Below are positions 20,098 through 49,666 of a stretch of 61,282 bases of DNA, piece by piece; position 1 is the stretch's first letter, and each line of letters opens with the position of its first letter. Source of the stretch: Pirellulales bacterium. GTDB taxonomy: Bacteria; Planctomycetota; Planctomycetia; Pirellulales; Pirellulaceae. Below the pieces are notes generated by a model. That model did not search any database. It had not been told where the DNA came from and saw only the letters and a list, made by a program, of their open reading frames with translations. The translations under genes were made by a program, and so were the position numbers. The stretch is from positions 1 through 61,282 of the forward strand of contig JAKUOW010000008.1 in assembly GCA_022451045.1 (NCBI GenBank). The letters are read 5' to 3'.

Positions 20098-21750
20098 ATG
20101 GCAACAATCAACACACTACACCGAGGCGTTAACCGTGTACGGCGGTTTCGCTTCGTTGCGCGGGTTGGTAGTGGGTTGTCCGTGTTCCTCACTCTGGTTG
20201 TTTGGGCATTATTGTTGGTGTTCTTTTTAGACCTATTCCTAAACACCGATACGTTCGAGCGAGTGTTGCTTTTGGGCGTAGTGGTGATTGCCGCCTTATG
20301 GTCTCTAAGGAAGCACGTATTACCTGCCCTTGCACAGTCAGAGAGTCGGGTCTCAATGGCCGCGATGGTTGAGAGGCAGCAGGGAATTCCTTCGGATCTC
20401 GTAGCCACGATGCAATTTGCTGACAAGAAGAGAAATCAGTACGGTTCTGAAGAGCTGAGGGCAGCAATCGTAACGCAAACCGTCGAAGTCAGTGGACGGC
20501 TGAATTATCTGGAAGGCTTTTCACGGCCTGATCTCTGGAAGCGCTTTGGTGGTGCTGTCATTAGTGTGTTGCTGGTAGGGTTGCTGCTCGTCTGGCAAGG
20601 CGAATACGCTCAAATCTTCTTTAAACGCATGCTGTTTAACGAAGTCTCCTACCCGACAGCAACGAAGATTGCTGATATTGTCAGTCCAGGCAACAAGTCT
20701 GTGTATGGCAAGCCAATTCTCTTCCGAATTCAGGCAGGCGGCGTCATTCCCGAAGACGGTGAGATAACAATCGAAACCAAGGGTGGTACGCTCTCCCGAA
20801 TCAAGCTTGTGCCGGAAGAGCCCGGGAGCACGATGTTTGTTGGCCAGTTGGATATGGCCATCGATGATATTAACTACACCGTAGCTTTGGGTGACGCTGT
20901 TTCAGAAAAGCAGCAGCTTCAAATCATTCCAGTGCCCATTGTTGAAATGGAGCTTGATGTCAACATCCCGGAGTATGCCCGACATCGCTTCCATGAGGCC
21001 AGTGCGAACAGTCGTTCTCGCGTGGTATTAGAAGGCACAACCATAAAACCAAGAGTTGTGTCGAGCAAGAGCCTTAGCAATGTAACTCTGGCTGTAAACG
21101 ACCAGCCTGTCGAAGTTGAAGCGAAGGATGATGATAAAAACTGGGGTCTTGTATTGCCTAAGGAAGGCAACATTTTTGCCGACGCAAAGGCAAACCCTTT
21201 TGCTGATCTACAAGAGACTATTCACTACCGTGTCGAAGTAAAAGATCTGGACGGCATTGAGCTTGAACGGCCTATTGGCGGTGTGATTCAAGTGCGACCT
21301 GATTTGCCGCCAAGAATTGCGGCTGCCACTGTAATCGATTTAGCGCTACCAAGCGCCAAGCCACGGATTAAATATCGTGCCGTTGACGATTATGCGATCG
21401 GGGGTCTAAGTGCAAGAATCTTGATAGAACGAGATGGCGAAGAGCTACAAACAGAGACAATTTCCATCCCTTTGGGGGGCGAGGAAGAGGTTCTAATGGA
21501 CATTGACTCCAATGCACAGGTAGACCTTTCCAATTTCTCTCTAGAGATAGGTGATTCAGTTACGGTAACCTTAATAGTTAGAGATTATCGGGGAGACACG
21601 GAAGGCGAAGCCACCGAAGCTGATCCGTTGGTATTAGAAATTGCCAGCCGATCAGATTTTCTGGCTGCCATGCGCAAAGTGGACGCGCAAACCGATGAGA
21701 AACTCGACCAAATCATTCAAGCTCAATTAGGAATCGGAGACCGCAAATGA
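20098..21750 (+). CDS. Membrane protein resembling the N-terminal half of DUF4175 proteins
   Basis: The start at ATG 20098 is preferred over an in-frame ATG at 19993 that lies inside the preceding gene; this gives 550 residues. Two hydrophobic helices (about 26-47 and 56-74) are followed by a VERQQGIPSDLVATM segment and by large beta-rich extracytoplasmic regions, including PDLPPRIAAATVID and YRAVDDYAIGGLSA. From memory these match DUF4175 proteins, in which a membrane-anchored beta region leads into a coiled-coil and Gln/Pro-rich tail in one chain. Here the tail-like part is the next gene, whose start overlaps this stop as ATGA. Confidence 0.65.
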   Translation: MATINTLHRGVNRVRRFRFVARVGSGLSVFLTLVVWALLLVFFLDLFLNTDTFERVLLLGVVVIAALWSLRKHVLPALAQSESRVSMAAMVERQQGIPSDLVATMQFADKKRNQYGSEELRAAIVTQTVEVSGRLNYLEGFSRPDLWKRFGGAVISVLLVGLLLVWQGEYAQIFFKRMLFNEVSYPTATKIADIVSPGNKSVYGKPILFRIQAGGVIPEDGEITIETKGGTLSRIKLVPEEPGSTMFVGQLDMAIDDINYTVALGDAVSEKQQLQIIPVPIVEMELDVNIPEYARHRFHEASANSRSRVVLEGTTIKPRVVSSKSLSNVTLAVNDQPVEVEAKDDDKNWGLVLPKEGNIFADAKANPFADLQETIHYRVEVKDLDGIELERPIGGVIQVRPDLPPRIAAATVIDLALPSAKPRIKYRAVDDYAIGGLSARILIERDGEELQTETISIPLGGEEEVLMDIDSNAQVDLSNFSLEIGDSVTVTLIVRDYRGDTEGEATEADPLVLEIASRSDFLAAMRKVDAQTDEKLDQIIQAQLGIGDRK

Positions 21751-24700
21751 CGCGTCAGATTCTCGTTGCCATTCTTTCAGTTTCTTTGTTCGCAAACAGC
21801 GTAGCTCAGGCCCAAGAAACGAAGCCTGCAAACCGTACCGTTATTAACCAATACAAGGTCAATCAACAGCGGGCAAAAGATCTCACCGCGGATTTATTAA
21901 AGGTCCTGGTCGACACCCAACTTGAGCAACTCGAGGACAACCAGCTCACCGATCTACCGCTGTATGAAGACCTTACATCTATGCGAGGCCGGTTAGGTGA
22001 CCTGGCTATGCAGAAAATGCCTGTAGTAATTGACTTACTGATGCAGGCTGATGTAGCTAAGCCAAATGAGCGACAGGATTTAATGAAAACCGTTCACGTC
22101 AAAATGAAGGACGTGCTGCTTGACCTTCTTCGTGAACGGGAAAAACTGCGCCTGAGGCGACAGCATGCCGAGTTGATAGAGCGCATCACCGAAGTGGTTG
22201 TTAAACAGACAGATACAAGAGAAGACACGGTTGAACTATCAACAACAAACGAACAAGAGATTTTGGCTACCACGCGATCGCAACAAGATGTCTCGCTGTT
22301 AGTCACCTCCTTTGATAACACGCTACAGATCGTCGCTGACTGGAGTGGTGAGCTTGGGAAAATGGCCACGCAATGTGCAAAGATCATTGAGAATGAAGAT
22401 GTTCATAGTCTCCTTGCTAAAGCCGAGACGCAGCTTGGTGATACAGAGTTTTCAGATGCCGCGGGCACGCAAAAAGAAGTCATCGACGCGCTAGAACAAA
22501 TCCTGAGTAAAATCCGCCGCTTTGAAGATCCGGCGTGGATTAATGCCGACGCCAAGGAGGCAGCTGAGGATATTCTCACCGCTCAGGAAGAAATCAAAGA
22601 GAAAATAGAAAACGGTGACCTTAAAGACGAGGAAGAGTTGAACTCCATTGTGGAAGAGCAGTCGCTGATCCGCGAAAAACTTAATCGCCTTAAGAATGCT
22701 TTGGCCACAAACGAAGATGCTGTTGAATTAGCAGAACGTGCGGAAGATGCTGCTGCAGAAGCACGCGAAGCCGTTTTCGAAGGTGAAGAACAAGAAGCCG
22801 TTGAATTGCAGGAAGAAGTGATCGGCACACTCGCTGAGCTTCAGGAAGAGATCCTGGAAGAGATCGATGGTTTTAAACCGGAGCTGTCTTCGGAAGAATA
22901 CAACAAAATTGCCGAGGAAGTGGCCGAGGCACGCGAGAAGCTCGAAGAGGCCGAGGAGCTAAACACCGAAGCCACCAAGACTGCTGAAGAATCTGCTGAA
23001 GAAGCGGCTGTTACAGAAGCCCAGGCAGAAGAGTCGGTAAACGAAGCCGGTGAAAATGAAAATCTGCCGGAAGATGTTGCCAATGCTATCGAGAACGCGG
23101 CTGAAGAAGTTGCTGAAGCTACCGAAGAGCTCCAAGAGGGCTCCGAAGAAAGCGAAGACGCTTTAGATGAAGCGGGCGAAGCAATAAGCGAAGCGATTGG
23201 TGAAGCGGAAATTGCTGAAGAAGAGGCTAAGAAAAACGCTCTTGCCGCAAAAGTTGGCGAATTAAATCGAGCCGTAGAATCCCTCGAGCGAGCTGCTGCG
23301 AAAGCACGTGAGACCGCTGAGTCCCTAAATGAAGATGGCTCACCGACGGAAGACCAGGTGGCACAAGCACAGGACGATCTTAACAAGATCGAAGAAATCG
23401 CTAATGACGTAGCTGAAGGTATCAAGCCGCTCTCCGATGAAAACGTAGAAGGGTTGCAGGAGGCTGCTAACGAAGCAAGCGAGTTATCAGAAAACCTTCC
23501 CATGGCCGCTGGCGACGAAGAAAAAGAAAGCGATGCCGCCAAACAGGCAGAAGCCGTGGCCGAAAACCTGGAAAGCGCCGCGAACGAGCTACGTGAAGAG
23601 CTGCTGGCTACCGCAGAAGAATTGGTCAACGAAGTTCAAGAACAGTTGGATGAAGTTACCGACCTTAAATCCGACGTTGCGATGGCTAATAACCCGGAAA
23701 CGCCGGCTACAGCAGAGCAGATCGAAGATCTGGCGGATCGTGCTCTCGAAGAGATTCCGAGTGTAGGTGAAGCACTGCAAGAAGCTGCTGATGCCGCTGA
23801 AGCTGCTGAAGCACAAGCTGACCAACCAGCAGAGAACGCTACACCACCGGAAGACGGCGACGAGCCGCAGGATGGTGGCGATGAACCGCCCACCGGTGAC
23901 GAACCAGCCGAGCCAAACAATGAGCCGGGCGACGAACCCGCTGATGAACCCACGGACGAGCCGGCCGATGGAGACGAGCCGGCCGATGATATGCCCGTGG
24001 AAGACGGTGAAGGCAAGCCCGTAGACCCTGAAACCCAAAAAGCTCGACAACTACTTCGTGCTGAAGTGCTTGCTGATATCAAAGAAGAAATTCTGGAAGA
24101 TGAGTTGGCTGCGGCTGAGGCATTGAAAGCGCTGGCTGAGCAGGGACAGGAGTCCGCTGAACAAATCGCCGAAGCGAGGGAAGCCGTTGCAGAGGAACAG
24201 GCCGAAGCTGCTGCAAATGCGCCAATGAATGGTGATATGAACGAAGGCCAGCCAATGGAAGATCCACACCCATCGGAAGCTGAAGAACAATTGCTTGATG
24301 CCGTTATTGATCAGGCAGAGGCTCTGGCGGGCATCGGTGAATTAGTGGAAGCTCTCACCGATCAGGAAGAGATTGCCAATCAGCCGATTAAGGATGCTGC
24401 TCAACTGGCGGCAACGCTGGCACCAATGGACACGCCAATGGATGCTGGTGATGCTGAGCCGGCAGAAGGTGATGCTCCGGAATCCGGCGATCAGCCGATG
24501 GCTAACACACCTCCTGCGCCACTGCCTACTCCAGATGCCGGAAACTTCGTGCCAACATCGCCACTGGAAACAGCTCAAATGATGGCAGGCAAAGAACTGC
24601 CATTGCCTACTGATCCAGCACAGCTGGCTGAAAACGGCTTGCCAATGAATGGTGAGTCCAACGGTGAGGCTCCAGAGGGGCCGGAGCAGGCAAACGGGCC

Positions 24701-25091
24701 TCCAATGCCCGGTCAGCAGCCAATGGAAGGTGGTCAACCCGGTCAGGGACAGTCCCAACAGGCATCAGAACAGGAACCAAATGATATGTCCACGTTTGCC
24801 AGCTCCCAAGCAAAGGGAGGCGGCACAAGTAAGGGTAAAATTGGTACGAGCGAAAACGAAGGGCCTCAGGAAGGAACGCCTGAAGTCGTTCAAGCTCAAA
24901 CCGATGCTGACTCAACCGTCCCTGGTGGAAGAAACGGTGACGCCAGCCTAAAAGGATTGCCACAAGAGAAGAGTGCATTCTTTACATCTCTACCTAAATC
25001 CGCTCGGGAAGCGATCAACTCTCGTCAGAATAAGGCACTGCCACGAGGGTATGAGGAACTCCTGAGAAAGTACTTTAAGAACATTAAGTAA
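21747..25091 (+). CDS. Secreted giant acidic coiled-coil protein (DUF4175 C-terminal-like)
   Basis: The 1114-residue product begins with a signal peptide (MTRQILVAILSVSLFANSVAQAQ). Residues about 60-690 are dominated by Ala/Glu heptad-like sequence, implying long coiled coils. About 700-770 is a Pro/Asp/Glu repeat (units such as GDEPADEPTDEP), then another short coiled coil and a Pro/Met/Gly/Gln-rich region to about 1060. The last residues, LPRGYEELLRKYFKNIK, resemble the short helical end of DUF4175-like proteins. It is coupled by ATGA overlap to the membrane gene before it and followed at 6 bp by moxR. Large open frames on its opposite strand are composition artefacts. Confidence 0.75.
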   Translation: MTRQILVAILSVSLFANSVAQAQETKPANRTVINQYKVNQQRAKDLTADLLKVLVDTQLEQLEDNQLTDLPLYEDLTSMRGRLGDLAMQKMPVVIDLLMQADVAKPNERQDLMKTVHVKMKDVLLDLLREREKLRLRRQHAELIERITEVVVKQTDTREDTVELSTTNEQEILATTRSQQDVSLLVTSFDNTLQIVADWSGELGKMATQCAKIIENEDVHSLLAKAETQLGDTEFSDAAGTQKEVIDALEQILSKIRRFEDPAWINADAKEAAEDILTAQEEIKEKIENGDLKDEEELNSIVEEQSLIREKLNRLKNALATNEDAVELAERAEDAAAEAREAVFEGEEQEAVELQEEVIGTLAELQEEILEEIDGFKPELSSEEYNKIAEEVAEAREKLEEAEELNTEATKTAEESAEEAAVTEAQAEESVNEAGENENLPEDVANAIENAAEEVAEATEELQEGSEESEDALDEAGEAISEAIGEAEIAEEEAKKNALAAKVGELNRAVESLERAAAKARETAESLNEDGSPTEDQVAQAQDDLNKIEEIANDVAEGIKPLSDENVEGLQEAANEASELSENLPMAAGDEEKESDAAKQAEAVAENLESAANELREELLATAEELVNEVQEQLDEVTDLKSDVAMANNPETPATAEQIEDLADRALEEIPSVGEALQEAADAAEAAEAQADQPAENATPPEDGDEPQDGGDEPPTGDEPAEPNNEPGDEPADEPTDEPADGDEPADDMPVEDGEGKPVDPETQKARQLLRAEVLADIKEEILEDELAAAEALKALAEQGQESAEQIAEAREAVAEEQAEAAANAPMNGDMNEGQPMEDPHPSEAEEQLLDAVIDQAEALAGIGELVEALTDQEEIANQPIKDAAQLAATLAPMDTPMDAGDAEPAEGDAPESGDQPMANTPPAPLPTPDAGNFVPTSPLETAQMMAGKELPLPTDPAQLAENGLPMNGESNGEAPEGPEQANGPPMPGQQPMEGGQPGQGQSQQASEQEPNDMSTFASSQAKGGGTSKGKIGTSENEGPQEGTPEVVQAQTDADSTVPGGRNGDASLKGLPQEKSAFFTSLPKSAREAINSRQNKALPRGYEELLRKYFKNIK

Positions 25092-29636: not shown

Positions 29637-30002
29637 CTACGATCGTAAATCAACCACTCTAAATCGTATGTCCCGGATATTAAGTCCCGGAAGTTTCTCG
29701 TTGAGTTCTTTAACTAAGTTGTGTTTTCTGAACATGAGTTCCTGCATGGCAGCAGAATTTTGAACTGCTATATCTAACACGCCACGTTTGATTGCTCCTG
29801 TTTTCGTCATGCTTCTCATCGCTGACCCGGCTATTTCATCCCACTTTTCCTGCAGGTCCGCGTTTCCTTTTATCTGGGCATAACCCGTTCTGGCCAGAAG
29901 TGTGTTTACCACGCTCTGTATAGAGCGGGGTAGTCGCGAGGAACGCTGCCGATTCTTAATATCAGCAAGGATCTCCTCCTCTGACTCCTGGTATTCATAC
30001 AT
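29637..30002 (-). CDS. dciA: DciA-like (DUF721) replication protein
   Basis: The 121-residue protein fits the DUF721/DciA family: an N-terminal helical segment, then the KH-like core with KWDEIAGSAMRSMTK (near 49-63), a GVLDIAVQNSAAMQEL stretch (near 70-85) and an NIRDIRFRVVDL end. DciA is the helicase-operating factor of bacteria that lack DnaC/DnaI, acting on DnaB at the origin. The gene sits 6 bp after dnaN and 26 bp before gyrB, the place where recF commonly occurs. Naming as DciA is from fold-level features and neighbourhood. Confidence 0.7.
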   Translation of the reverse strand: MYEYQESEEEILADIKNRQRSSRLPRSIQSVVNTLLARTGYAQIKGNADLQEKWDEIAGSAMRSMTKTGAIKRGVLDIAVQNSAAMQELMFRKHNLVKELNEKLPGLNIRDIRFRVVDLRS

Positions 30003-30008
30003 TACTGA

Positions 30009-31124
30009 TTACCGATCCCTTGCCAGTGGCATGACGATATAGTTGTATCCGTCCTCTGTCGTAAAGAGCACGGCACTTTCATTTCCTTGCACACTAATAG
30101 TGAAGGCACTTTCATTGTCCAGTGTCTTAAGAAAGTCTGCTACGTAGCGATGATCCATGCTAATCGTCAGCGGATCACCGTCGTATGCCACTGGTAACTC
30201 TGTTTTGGCTTCCCCCTTTTGAGCTGTCAGCCCGTGCATCTTTAGAGTGCCACTATTGAAGGAAAAATCAATTCCACGACTTTCATCACTCGTCATGATG
30301 GATGCCTGTCGCAGTTTGGAATAAACCGGTCCTACGGTGAGATTGATTTCCGACGGATCAGCAAAATTAGGGAATACTTCCTTCCATTTAGGGAAACGGC
30401 CTTCTACCAGGCCTGTTGTTATCATTGCCGTAGAAGTTCTTACCAATAGATGACCGTCTGATAGCGATACAGTTACCTCTTCTTCCGGATTACCCAGTGC
30501 ACGATCGATCAATCCCATCGATTTAGATGGAACAATCGTGTTAGATGCCCCCAAGTCGACTGTGCCAACAACCTCAACAGGGCCTTCCATCTTTGCGAGA
30601 CGCCGCCCATCCGTCCCTACAGCCACTAGATTTGATGAATTCATTTCGAGCAGTACGCCGCCAAGTGCATATCGACTGCTTTCATTGTCCGTTGCATACA
30701 GGGTGCGGCGAATCAACTCTTTAAGCAGCTTGGCTGGCAATTTCAGGAATGACTCGGATTCAGATCCATTTACGTCTGGATATTCATCTGGATTCTGAAA
30801 AGCCATGTTAAACAAGCTACTCTCACCAGTGATATCCACTGAGCTTTCGCTGACAGCCACAGAGAGCTTCTCATCCGTACTCTCCCGCAAGATATTACCA
30901 AACTCGGAAACAGGTAGAACAGCGCTTCCTGGGGCTTCTACGTCGATATCATCAACGCTCAAGCGGATGCCTATCTCCGTATCGGTTGCCATCAATACAA
31001 CTTGGTCGGCGGACGCAGAGATTTTTACACATTGCAGAATAGGTTTAGGGCTGCGGCTCGGTGCAACGGTAGCTACGGTCTGAAAAGCAGCGAGAAGCGT
31101 CTCTCGGTTAAAAGTCAGTTTCAT
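30009..31124 (-). CDS. dnaN: DNA polymerase III beta clamp
   Basis: The 371-residue sliding clamp starts at ATG 31124 (MKLTFNRETLL); five extra codons upstream (TTG at 31139) are unlikely to be used. The start is typical of DnaN, and the chain shows the three-domain clamp pattern with DNESSRYALGGVLLEM in domain 2, ATDGRRLAKMEG, and the C-terminal YNYIVMPLARDR, matching the usual YxYvvMPmR ending. It tethers the polymerase to DNA. It lies between the putative origin and dciA, co-oriented with dnaA. Confidence 0.95.
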   Translation of the reverse strand: MKLTFNRETLLAAFQTVATVAPSRSPKPILQCVKISASADQVVLMATDTEIGIRLSVDDIDVEAPGSAVLPVSEFGNILRESTDEKLSVAVSESSVDITGESSLFNMAFQNPDEYPDVNGSESESFLKLPAKLLKELIRRTLYATDNESSRYALGGVLLEMNSSNLVAVGTDGRRLAKMEGPVEVVGTVDLGASNTIVPSKSMGLIDRALGNPEEEVTVSLSDGHLLVRTSTAMITTGLVEGRFPKWKEVFPNFADPSEINLTVGPVYSKLRQASIMTSDESRGIDFSFNSGTLKMHGLTAQKGEAKTELPVAYDGDPLTISMDHRYVADFLKTLDNESAFTISVQGNESAVLFTTEDGYNYIVMPLARDR

Positions 31125-31210
31125 AATTCTTACTTTCAAATTGTCAGAGCCATACTTGGTTCGCTATGGCATGAAAACTGGATTGGGTACTTATTACTTA
31201 TTTTTAAATT

Positions 31211-31225
31211 AAGTAGTAGTAGTAA
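31211..31225 (-). promoter_or_regulatory. DnaA-trio run in oriC
   Basis: On the plus strand AAG TAG TAG TAG TAA occurs without interruption; on the minus strand this reads TTACTACTACTACTT. DnaA-trios are 3'-[G/A]A[T/A]-5' steps that the initiator filament binds on the melted strand. The run borders AT-rich DNA (31191-31210) on the dnaN side and a GC-rich block on the dnaA side. Confidence 0.68.
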
Positions 31226-31236
31226 GGCGGTTGCGG
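31226..31236. other. GC-rich block of the putative unwinding system
   Basis: The plus strand reads GGCGGTTGCGG in otherwise AT-rich surroundings, separating the DnaA-trios from the nearest box-like site. This is the expected position of the GC cluster in the basal unwinding system. Confidence 0.5.
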
Positions 31237-31239
31237 AAT

Positions 31240-31248
31240 TGTCCATAA
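31240..31248 (-). promoter_or_regulatory. DnaA box-like site nearest the trios
   Basis: The minus strand reads TTATGGACA, one mismatch from TTATNCACA (C to G at position 6). Position and orientation relative to the trios match the known arrangement. Confidence 0.5.
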
Positions 31249-31368
31249 AGTGGTTTAGACACGCGAAAAAGCCTTAAAAACCAGAACGAGATATTACAAA
31301 GACCCTAGCGGAAAACATCTCGATAAGACGTCGGCGATTCGTCCATTAACCGTCATCAAATCAGCTAG

Positions 31369-31377
31369 TTATAGACC
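31369..31377 (+). promoter_or_regulatory. DnaA box-like site TTATAGACC
   Basis: Matches the proposed local consensus TTATRGACA except for the last base. It belongs to a set of TAGAC-containing sites concentrated between dnaA and dnaN. Confidence 0.35.
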
Positions 31378-31408
31378 GACTGTCGAACCAGCGAAAATAT
31401 GGCCAAAC

Positions 31409-31417
31409 TCATAGACA
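31409..31417 (+). promoter_or_regulatory. DnaA box-like site TCATAGACA
   Basis: Matches TTATRGACA with one mismatch (position 2). A related TGTTAGACA lies at 31430-31438, a GTTTAGACA at 31253-31261, and a canonical-like GTATTCACA on the minus strand at 31459-31467. Confidence 0.35.
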
Positions 31418-31473
31418 GTAATCTACGTCTGTTAGACAGGTTTTCCACTATTATTGTTTGTGAATACCGTTGT

Positions 31474-32622
31474 TCATTCCTCCTGTGTACTACTACTTTG
31501 TTGTATAGGTGAATTAGGAAAGCGATCCTCAATGATCGATGTAAGCTCCTGGTAAGTTGTGGTAATAAATGCATCTGAATTAAGCCGCAGCCGCGTCTTC
31601 TCACAAGCATTCATAACGGTTGAATGGTCTCGTCCACCGAAGTACTTTCCGATGGCGGTATAGCTTTCAGCAGTAAACGTCCGGCAGAGCATCATCGCTA
31701 TTCCGCGAGCGCGGGAGAGATACTGCCGTCGTGATTTTCCTTTAAGATCGCCCATCCTTACATTTAGGCGTTTTCCCACAATAGATGTGATATCCCGGCA
31801 GGTGGGGAGCTGGTTAAGGTACTCGCCCTTTAAATATTCTCGGATTAACACCCTCGTTATCTGAGATCCGGAGAGTTCAGCTGTCGTCTGAAGGCGTATC
31901 AGGGCCCTTCGCAGTTGCGGCACGGTTTTAATTGGAGACGGGCAGCCAGCTTCACCTCGAATCAAAAGCTTGCCCAGTGTTGTATCAAGCTCTATCCCTC
32001 GCTGTGCTGCAAGTTCATCAAGCAGAAAGAGCATAGACTCCTCGCTCGGCGCGCAAAGCGGCAGTTGTAACCCACCAAACAGACGGCTTACAAGCGTTTC
32101 TTCCAGACCATGTGCCTGTGCTAGTGTGCTGGGCAATGTACAGACGACGAATTGTCCCTGACGAACCATGCTGTCTATTAGCTGGGCGAGTTGAGATTGA
32201 GCTGAAGCACGATGGTTGAGCATTTGCAAGTCATCGATAACCAGCAGCCCTAGCTTCATAAACTGTCGCCGGAATCGATACGTGTTATGGCTGCGAACAG
32301 CGTTTGTGTAACCTCTAAGGAAGTCAGCACCGGTGGTTATAAGCACGTTTTCGTCTGGATAGCGACGCTTCCAACAATCAGCAATACCATAAGCTAGGAG
32401 AGTCTTGCCAACACTTCCAGCACCAGTAATGACCAGTGGATTGCAGAATGGCTGCCGGTCCAGTACAGCATCAAACGCAGTCAAGACCGTTTGAGATTGT
32501 TCATCTCCAACATATAGCTGGGGTCCATGATCTGGCGCAAGATCGGCCTCTTTTGATCTCACAGCGGCTGATTTCTCGCCTGTGGCATCCTTGAGCGATA
32601 TGGTAAAGATTCCATTTACCAC
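31474..32622 (-). CDS. dnaA: Chromosomal replication initiator DnaA, short form without domain I
   Basis: The 382-residue protein (GTG start at 32622; no ATG exists upstream before a stop) has an AAA+ domain with Walker A GAGSVGKT, Walker B LLVIDDLQML and the Arg-finger segment LVSRLFGGL, and a domain IV with the signature GGRDHSTVMNACEKT. Only about 36 residues precede the AAA+ domain, against roughly 130 in E. coli, so domains I and II (helicase and regulator contact) are missing. In the DNA-reading helix, positions equal to E. coli Thr435 and His439 are Ser and Asn. DnaA opens the origin in an ATP-dependent filament. It is transcribed toward oriC and dnaN. Confidence 0.9.
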   Translation of the reverse strand: MVNGIFTISLKDATGEKSAAVRSKEADLAPDHGPQLYVGDEQSQTVLTAFDAVLDRQPFCNPLVITGAGSVGKTLLAYGIADCWKRRYPDENVLITTGADFLRGYTNAVRSHNTYRFRRQFMKLGLLVIDDLQMLNHRASAQSQLAQLIDSMVRQGQFVVCTLPSTLAQAHGLEETLVSRLFGGLQLPLCAPSEESMLFLLDELAAQRGIELDTTLGKLLIRGEAGCPSPIKTVPQLRRALIRLQTTAELSGSQITRVLIREYLKGEYLNQLPTCRDITSIVGKRLNVRMGDLKGKSRRQYLSRARGIAMMLCRTFTAESYTAIGKYFGGRDHSTVMNACEKTRLRLNSDAFITTTYQELTSIIEDRFPNSPIQQSSSTQEE

Positions 32623-34208: not shown

Positions 34209-35207
34209 ATGCGAAGCGCATTTAACCACATTCGACCGGTATATTTGTCGAAGGTACAGTCGTCGACAATGCTGCGCCGCCGCCACACACGGATGCGGTT
34301 TCCAGTCGTCACGACCGAACAGATTGTGGTTATGCCGGAATCAGAATTGGCCAAGCGACAACGAGTCGAAGGCACGCTCTTTCTAGGAAGAGAGCCGATG
34401 CCAAGCAGAAAGCTGGCACAGTTCGCCGACTTGAAAGACAGTAACGAAGCGCGAACAATAGTACGCCACTTAAATGAACAGTACGATCAAACAGGCCGCG
34501 CATTTCGCGTTGAGGAAGTTGGTGGCGGGTTTCAGCTAATGACCCGCCCGGTGTTTTCCCAATGGTTGCGGCGGTTTGAACATATCCCTAATCCAAAACG
34601 GCTTTCTTCCCCGGCAATGGAGACTCTATCGGTGATCGCATATGAACAACCTGCTACGCGAGCAGACGTGGAAGCCATTCGCGGCGTTGGGTGCGGTGAA
34701 GTGCTGCGCCAACTCATGGAACGCGATATGGTTAAAATCGCTGGCCGTAGCGAAGACCTTGGTCGACCATACCTATATGCCACGACGCGCAAGTTTTTGC
34801 AGGCATTTGGGCTGACCAGCCTTGAAGAATTGCCGGAGATTAAACGGAGCCAAATCCTCATGAATGCCAGTGACAATAAAGACGAGGAATTAACAAGTGA
34901 GATTGATGAAATTGAATCGCTAGATGAAGAGCAGGACGCCGACCTGGATGATGACACAGCCAACGACCCAGATGAGAGCGATGGCTTTGACGAAGACGAC
35001 CTCGAAGAACTAGAGGACGATGACTGGGATGACGAGGATGATGACGAGGATGAGGAGGAGGATGATGACGATGATGATGACGAGGATGATGACGAGGATG
35101 ATGATTCCAGCTGGGAAGAAGTAGAAGACGACGACGAAGATGACGAGTCAGGCTGGGAAGATGACTATGACGATCTGGAAGACGACAGTGAAGACTCCGA
35201 CGACTAG
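34209..35207 (+). CDS. scpB: Segregation and condensation protein B with acidic tail
   Basis: The 332-residue protein has the ScpB winged-helix pair: RVEGTLFLGREPMPSRKLAQ (near 52-71) and the family hallmark SVIAYEQPATRADVEAIRG (near 141-159) followed by RGVGCGEVLRQLMERD and GRPYLYATTRKFLQAFGL. ScpB binds the kleisin ScpA to regulate SMC. After about residue 235 the chain is an almost uninterrupted Asp/Glu-rich tail of about 100 residues, made of GAY/GAR codons. The start is uncertain: ATG 34209 has no good ribosome site and an in-frame TGA lies just upstream; in-frame ATGs further in are possible. scpA is not in the window. Confidence 0.85.
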   Translation: MRSAFNHIRPVYLSKVQSSTMLRRRHTRMRFPVVTTEQIVVMPESELAKRQRVEGTLFLGREPMPSRKLAQFADLKDSNEARTIVRHLNEQYDQTGRAFRVEEVGGGFQLMTRPVFSQWLRRFEHIPNPKRLSSPAMETLSVIAYEQPATRADVEAIRGVGCGEVLRQLMERDMVKIAGRSEDLGRPYLYATTRKFLQAFGLTSLEELPEIKRSQILMNASDNKDEELTSEIDEIESLDEEQDADLDDDTANDPDESDGFDEDDLEELEDDDWDDEDDDEDEEEDDDDDDDEDDDEDDDSSWEEVEDDDEDDESGWEDDYDDLEDDSEDSDD

Positions 35208-48316: not shown

Positions 48317-49639
48317 TTATGCCCAGTAACCGCCGCGTGTGTGGTCAAACTGCACTTCGCTACCATAGCGCGACTCATCTACCTGGCCCTCGCGATACAC
48401 CGTATGTCCCATGCACCAAGTCCGTACAGCCCAGCCCTGCAGCGTCTCTCCGTGCCAAGGCGTCCAGCCACTCTTGGTCAGCTGATCTTCGTTGTGCACG
48501 GTCTGCTTCAATGTCATATCCACTAGCACCAGATCGGCATCGTATCCGACTTCGATTCGTCCCTTATCAACCATATCCCAAGTGCGAGCCGGTGCATCAC
48601 ACATCCATCCAGCCACTTGCTCCAGTGTGCAATTCCCTTGGTTGACTTGATTAAGAATCAAGGCCAGCGAGTTTTCCACAGCGGGCAACCCAGACGGACT
48701 TTGTGGATAAGGCTGCTGCTTTTCTTCAAGCGTGTGCGGTGCGTGGTCAGTAGCAATCACTTGAATCTTGTTGTCCAGCAGCGCTTGCCACAACTGTGTG
48801 TTATCCTCTTTGGCCTTAATCGACGGATTCATCTGTATCAGAGATCCGAGACGATCATAATCATCCACATTGAAGAACAAATGATGAGGGCAGGCCTCAG
48901 CCGTTAATAGCCCGCGATGATCCTGAAACAGTTCCACCTCCGCTCCCGTTGAAACATGCAGGACGTGGAACCGGTGATTGTGCCGATGTGAAAGATCCAC
49001 TGCCCGTTTGGTCGCAATGTATGCAGCTTCGTAATCCCGAATACGGGAATGGTCATGAATATCTGTTGTTCCTGCAAACCGTTCTTTGTTGGCTCTCACT
49101 GTGGTTTCGTCTTCGCAATGAGCGGTGATTGGCAAAGTCGTTTCGGCAAAGATCCGCTCGAGCGCTGCTTGTTCATCCACGAGCAGATTACCAGTGCTTG
49201 ATCCGATGAAGATCTTGATCCCGGGCGTTCGTTGCGCCGCAGCAAGTTCCTCGACGTTGTCAGGCGTAGCACCTATATAGAAACCGTAATTTACAAAACT
49301 GCGAGTGCTTGCCATTTCAAGCTTGTCGTGCAGCGCGTCCACCGTGATTGTGTTGGGTTTTGTGTTTGGCATTTCGAGAAAGGTCGTTACGCCACCTTTA
49401 GCGCAGGCTCGTGATGCATGAGCCAGGTCTTCTTTGTGAGTCAGGCCCGGCTCGCGGAAGTGTACCTGATCGTCAACGATTCCGGGCAGCAGATGCAGGC
49501 CGGTTGCGTCCACGACTTCGTCGGCTTCTGTTTGGATAGCCGCATCGATGTCGACAATTTTTGTGCCATCGGTCAGTACTGACACTTCGGCGATTCCAGA
49601 AGGCAATACAACGGTTGCGTTTTTAATGAGCGTTTTCAA
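48317..49639 (-). CDS. pyrC: Dihydroorotase
   Basis: The 440-residue amidohydrolase closes carbamoyl aspartate to dihydroorotate in pyrimidine synthesis. Metal-ligand motifs are VHFREPG (HxR near residue 60) and [14 protein letters not shown] (catalytic Asp near 306). ENSLALIL and the length are typical of type I dihydroorotase. It fits a pyrimidine theme with carB in the same window. The gene lies 27 bp after the molybdoenzyme gene on the same strand. Confidence 0.93.
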
Positions 49640-49666
49640 TTTTCATCCCTTTTTTGTCTAAACGCA

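Follow-up and report, generated by a model that had tools for sequence, protein, structure and literature searches.

The 355-bp gap between dnaA and dnaN described here is very probably the chromosome origin of a marine Pirellulales bacterium, and the segment at approximately 31186-31248 its strand-opening module. Read on the minus strand, the gap presents in order a divergent DnaA box, TTATGGACA (31248-31240), a GC-rich spacer, ATTCCGCAACCGCC (31239-31226), the trio run TTACTACTACTACTT (31225-31211) and then AATTTAAAAATAAGTAATAAG. The original prediction had likened this order and polarity to the Bacillus-type basal unwinding system (BUS), and the agreement holds, in position as well. The letters and coordinates that it gave for the box, the GC block and the trio run are exact on the minus strand; its GC block (31236-31226) is indeed present, but represents only the 3′ part of the 14-nt spacer.

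We propose that DnaA, presumably the short DnaA encoded beside the gap, would bind the divergent box on duplex DNA via its C-terminal domain. A filament of AAA+ domains would grow from the box across the GC-rich spacer and engage the 3′-GAT-5′ trios carried by the strand opposite TTACTACTACTACTT, an engagement that would melt the adjoining AT-rich DNA. The helicase may be loaded at this melted DNA, probably with the help of DciA, which is encoded two genes away.

Genes and sequence elements of the dnaA-dnaN gap

The window, i.e., the whole stretch of 61,282 nucleotides that was analysed, belongs to a genome of 4,591,267 bases in 398 contigs. On the minus strand, dnaA is followed by the gap, dnaN, dciA and gyrB, and the features of the locus are the following.

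31474-32622, minus strand: short dnaA, encoding the AAA+ and box-binding domains (Pfam Bac_DnaA and Bac_DnaA_C) without domain I
31119-31473, minus strand: dnaA-dnaN gap, proposed oriC; the homologous gap lies at the skew-inferred origin in four complete genomes of the same family
30009-31118, minus strand: dnaN, sliding clamp
29637-30002, minus strand: dciA, helicase operator (PF05258; role from PMC5109545)
27109-29610, minus strand: gyrB
31240-31248, minus strand: divergent DnaA box TTATGGACA, with two mismatches to TTATCCACA; position conserved order-wide as N3T[CTG][GA]ACA
31226-31239, minus strand: GC-rich 14-nt spacer ATTCCGCAACCGCC
31211-31225, minus strand: five DnaA-trios, TTACTACTACTACTT (TTA CTA CTA CTA CTT); the 15-mer occurs a single time in its own 4.59-Mb genome
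31186-31215, minus strand: AT-rich, least stable duplex (lowest nearest-neighbour stability), proposed DNA unwinding element
31441-31449, plus strand: predicted accessory box-like site TTTTCCACT; TTTTCCAC is strongly enriched in gaps of the order
31340-31348, minus strand: weak, putative second box-like site of the TGGAC type, TAATGGACG (sequence read directly; TGATGGACA in the sister species)

The strand opposite TTACTACTACTACTT reads 3′-AAT GAT GAT GAT GAA-5′ and thus consists of five trio units, three of them 3′-GAT-5′, all of which fit the published form 3′-[G/A]A[T/A]-5′ (PMC7561715, PMC8287927). The run and the dnaN start codon are about 100 nt apart. According to nearest-neighbour stability, no 25-mer in the gap is less stable than 31191-31215, and at the printed precision this holds for the entire window as well; the segment overlaps the last trios.

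A chance trinucleotide repeat next to a chance box match would be in line with two of our results. Taken by itself, the box TTATGGACA is no more than chance would give, since about 1.2 boxes with two mismatches are expected per shuffled gap, and the loose published rule (at least three NTN) is satisfied by 15% of shuffled gaps. However, only this site in the 61-kb window satisfies a stricter rule that demands a box (≤2 mismatches), a spacer (≤16) and four or more [CT]T[AT] trios, and 1000 dinucleotide-shuffled gaps yielded no match to it. The combination of box, spacer and trios is not due to chance. Given also the whole-genome search and the order-wide conservation on the sense strand reported below, the latter of which already refutes a coincidence, we assign this explanation practically no probability.

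Two open frames elsewhere in the window were noted for their composition. A long plus-strand frame at 21698-25088 shows a very high AT skew of about +0.3 with a strongly A-rich coding strand, and the product of the frame at 34209-35207 carries a very acidic, Asp/Glu-rich C-terminal tail of about 100 residues.

Conservation across Pirellulales

The DnaA of the sister species Rhodopirellula sp. SAT12 is approximately 96% identical to that of the window. Within the region compared between the two, the longest identical stretch is 31179-31230, while 18 of 219 positions differ in the dnaA-side part of the gap (31249-31473). The SAT12 box, TTGTGGACA, has three mismatches to TTATCCACA in comparison to two in the window.

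For a broader view, the dnaA-dnaN gaps of 28 Pirellulales genomes from different genera were sampled, which overall cannot be aligned by eye. A best match to TACTACTACT with at most two mismatches was found on the sense strand in 23 of the 28 gaps and on the antisense strand in none, with 2.7 expected from dinucleotide shuffles; with at most one mismatch, the numbers were 14 and zero, with an expectation of 0.16. By the strict score, a good trio match was absent in five of the 28 gaps. Trio words ranked very high among the words enriched in the gaps, as did TTTTCCAC, TATCGAC and TTATCCAC. A second strongly enriched element in many Pirellulales gaps, (ACAG)GTTTTCCAC, has its window copy on the plus strand at 31436-31449 and is probably an accessory DnaA site.

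Mostly 13-20 nt upstream of the trios, the Pirellulales gaps carry a box-like element, N3T[CTG][GA]ACA. Examples from relatives are TTATCGACA, which stands at the position of the window box, TTATCAACA, TTGTCGACA and TTACTGACA. This element outscores the rest of its own gap (combined p of about 3e-6), in a test that is partly in-sample because the consensus was derived from the same gaps and that is weakened rather than helped by a few trio anchors misplaced by the script. Across 23 genomes, the mean GC content is 64% in the spacer, 47% in the gap and 22% in the 25 nt past the trios, and these 25 nt are GC-poorer than the gap in each of the 23. The original prediction had named conservation of the spacing between trios and box in close relatives as a check, and this check, when run, spoke in its favour: the trio run and its distance to the box-like element are kept across Pirellulales.

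In all gaps examined, the conserved element precedes dnaN, as would be expected if it served dnaN as a promoter or leader, or were a regulatory DnaA site, and did not belong to any unwinding module. Nevertheless, the trios lie anywhere between about 48 and 250 nt from dnaN across the gaps, while their distance to the box is confined to a narrow range. In each of the 23 genomes scored, the trios are furthermore followed by unstable DNA, and the locus coincides with the origin deduced from nucleotide skew (see below). We therefore regard a purely regulatory role as improbable.

We also searched 297 whole genomes of Pirellulales for the proposed unwinding module using the strict pattern TTATC[AG]ACA-(11-20 nt)-TA[CT]T[AG]CT[AG]CT. 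The pattern matched in 10 of the 297 genomes, at one place each, a number that does not represent the frequency of the module because the pattern is deliberately strict and fails to match even the window's own TTATGGACA. All ten places are situated between the short dnaA and dnaN, and a reversed control pattern yielded one match. The ten matching genomes were all outside the set in which the motif had been seen, and hence constitute a held-out sample. In a phylum-wide survey of dnaN flanks, a comparable run was present in a few distant genomes only (e.g., L178 and L201), and we therefore make no claim beyond Pirellulales. In L201, which belongs to another planctomycete group, the similar run AACTACTACTAATTATTTAAATAATAAAG lies 61 nt before dnaN; the adjoining DnaA has no sensor-II Arg and has RHH for RDH.

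Probable origin location and the two DnaA proteins

Nucleotide skew, which had been suggested as a check on the origin, was assessed in complete genomes of relatives by sampling twenty 20-kb stretches per genome and averaging the third-codon-position GC skew over the two coding strands, with a resolution of about 5% of the chromosome. In four complete genomes of the same family (G028, G006, G036 and G011), the best origin position was 0.00, 0.97, 0.00 and 0.00 of the chromosome, respectively, with permutation p values between <0.004 and 0.03. The short dnaA is found within the first few hundred bases of these four records, so that the skew-inferred origin lies at or near the homologous dnaA-dnaN gap and the suggested location is supported in relatives. 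No skew signal was obtained from G041 and G059, which belong to other families.

The window itself has its cumulative GC-skew maximum at 26-27 kb, coincident with a change in gene orientation. There is no minimum at 31.2 kb, and the strand-corrected values across the 61 kb lack an origin-like switch. Since the skew follows gene orientation and shows no switch after strand correction, it is uninformative here. The missing minimum would agree with a true origin elsewhere, for instance at the second, full-length dnaA, in which case the gap would be a mere relic of a dnaA operon; that the long DnaA is nearer to canonical DnaA by score (332 bits vs 195 for the short one) points in the same direction. 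In the four complete same-family genomes, however, the skew favours the short over the long dnaA, the latter obtaining a negative or poor score as origin, and no trio run with at most one mismatch was detected near 17 long dnaA genes. An origin away from the gap is thus very unlikely in our judgement.

The window contains a further group of three DnaA-box matches, one of them exact, within 200 bp (48672-48869), 17 kb from dnaA. This cluster at 48.67-48.87 kb was rejected as an alternative origin, as it is located inside the open reading frame 48319-49642 and is not accompanied by any trio run.

Two DnaA homologues are encoded in nearly every Pirellulales genome examined. In most genomes, the short DnaA adjoining dnaN leaves no room for domain I, and among solved structures its best relative is B. 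subtilis DnaA as bound in the BUS complex (8btg). The RDH motif that reads the box is kept in 32 of 32 short DnaAs. Among the same 32 proteins, the arginine finger R264 is conserved in 30 and, of the residues that contact the trios, R202 in 28, E228 in 25 and K222 in 29 (as K or R); the sensor-II Arg remains in five only, Pro being the commonest residue at this position. The short DnaA of the window has R at positions 202, 222 and 264, but Q at 228, T for I190 and Pro in place of the sensor-II Arg, three replacements that speak against the proposed mechanism. Among the alignable dnaN-adjacent DnaAs of other planctomycete groups, the sensor-II Arg is retained in 18 of 19. The residue comparison therefore indicates that the dnaN-side DnaA of Pirellulales is the derived one, and that a more canonical DnaA is encoded at another locus, which lacks a trio run in its vicinity. 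Domains III-IV of B. subtilis DnaA alone separate strands (PMC10721633), which makes the short DnaA a plausible opener.

The module might also function with its trios engaged by the full-length DnaA, either alone or together with the short one. The long protein possesses domain I and has kept R202, K222, E228, the arginine finger and the sensor-II Arg in 17 of 17 cases, with position 190 as the exception among the AAA+ and trio-contact residues tested; the frequent loss of the sensor-II Arg in the short DnaA would also fit. On the other hand, the Asp of RDH is kept in none of the 17 long DnaAs (replaced by Ser in 11 and Ala in three) and in all of the short ones, and the gene linked to the origin is the short dnaA. 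We consider such an engagement a possibility of some weight, although we lean against it. It is with more doubt than conviction that we suggest a division of labour, in which the divergent box is read by the short DnaA, a protein that lacks domain I and in most cases the sensor-II Arg, and the full-length DnaA, whose AAA+ residues and domain I are intact and whose box-reading Asp is replaced, joins for the trio filament or for helicase recruitment. The DnaA pair with complementary losses was noted at 31474-32622 of the window and at G000:C239:2101-3511 (L044).

Comparison with known unwinding systems

A published survey predicted a BUS in 85% of 2070 origins and described the system as widespread (PMC8287927). 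Therefore, a planctomycete BUS is expected in kind, and it may already be listed, unremarked, in the supplementary table of that survey. In the main text of the open-access papers searched, we found none that joins DnaA-trio and planctomycete terms, nor a description of an order-wide DnaA pair with complementary losses. This pair and the divergent box are the unusual parts of the system. Little is understood of how planctomycetes replicate and divide, and the module provides them with a candidate origin whose location is precise and which is open to study on a single 60-bp fragment. Trio-based opening would moreover extend to bacteria in which the initiator is divergent and shortened, and which therefore offer a test of which parts of DnaA this opening needs.

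By the published sequence criteria, the window module is a member of the BUS family, if barely so with regard to its box. The box has exactly the two mismatches to TTATCCACA that are allowed, one fewer than in SAT12, and the 14 nt between box and first trio fall into the permitted range of 0-16 bp. At least three trios of the form 3′-NAN-5′, preferably 3′-GAT-5′, are called for on the proper strand, where five are present, followed by the AT-rich unstable DNA at 31191-31215. Its position within an origin is derived solely from the skew of the four complete same-family genomes. No second box with two or fewer mismatches adjoins 31240-31248; a tandem co-oriented box is the most frequent arrangement (57% in the survey) without being obligatory, and single-box modules occur as well (PMC8287927).

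The closest parallel is the BUS of B. subtilis oriC with boxes #6/#7 and DnaA-trios (PMC6669920, PMC8287927, PMC10721633), where the box is likewise separated by a short stretch of GC-rich sequence from a minimum of three 3′-[G/A]A[T/A]-5′ trios, with AT-rich DNA beyond them, all on one strand next to dnaA. In contrast to B. subtilis, the box has diverged here (TTATGGACA, and TTATCGACA or TTATCAACA in relatives), the spacer measures 14 nt, a clear second co-oriented box is missing, the initiator lacks domain I and the sensor-II Arg, and a second DnaA exists. The oriC2 of Clostridioides difficile (PMC7561715) similarly carries its trio run, CTACTACTATTACTACTA, between a GC cluster and the unwinding element in the dnaA-dnaN gap. 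However, that origin is bipartite, with several canonical boxes and a canonical full-length DnaA, and its unwinding was demonstrated experimentally. The dnaA-dnaN gaps of Erysipelotrichaceae (L003, L006-L011 and L013) likewise combine a TTATCCACA-type box, a GC-rich spacer and TTAATAATAAT-type trios just upstream of dnaN, but differ from the Pirellulales module in a mostly canonical box, a compact gap of about 150 bp and a DnaA with canonical sensor II.
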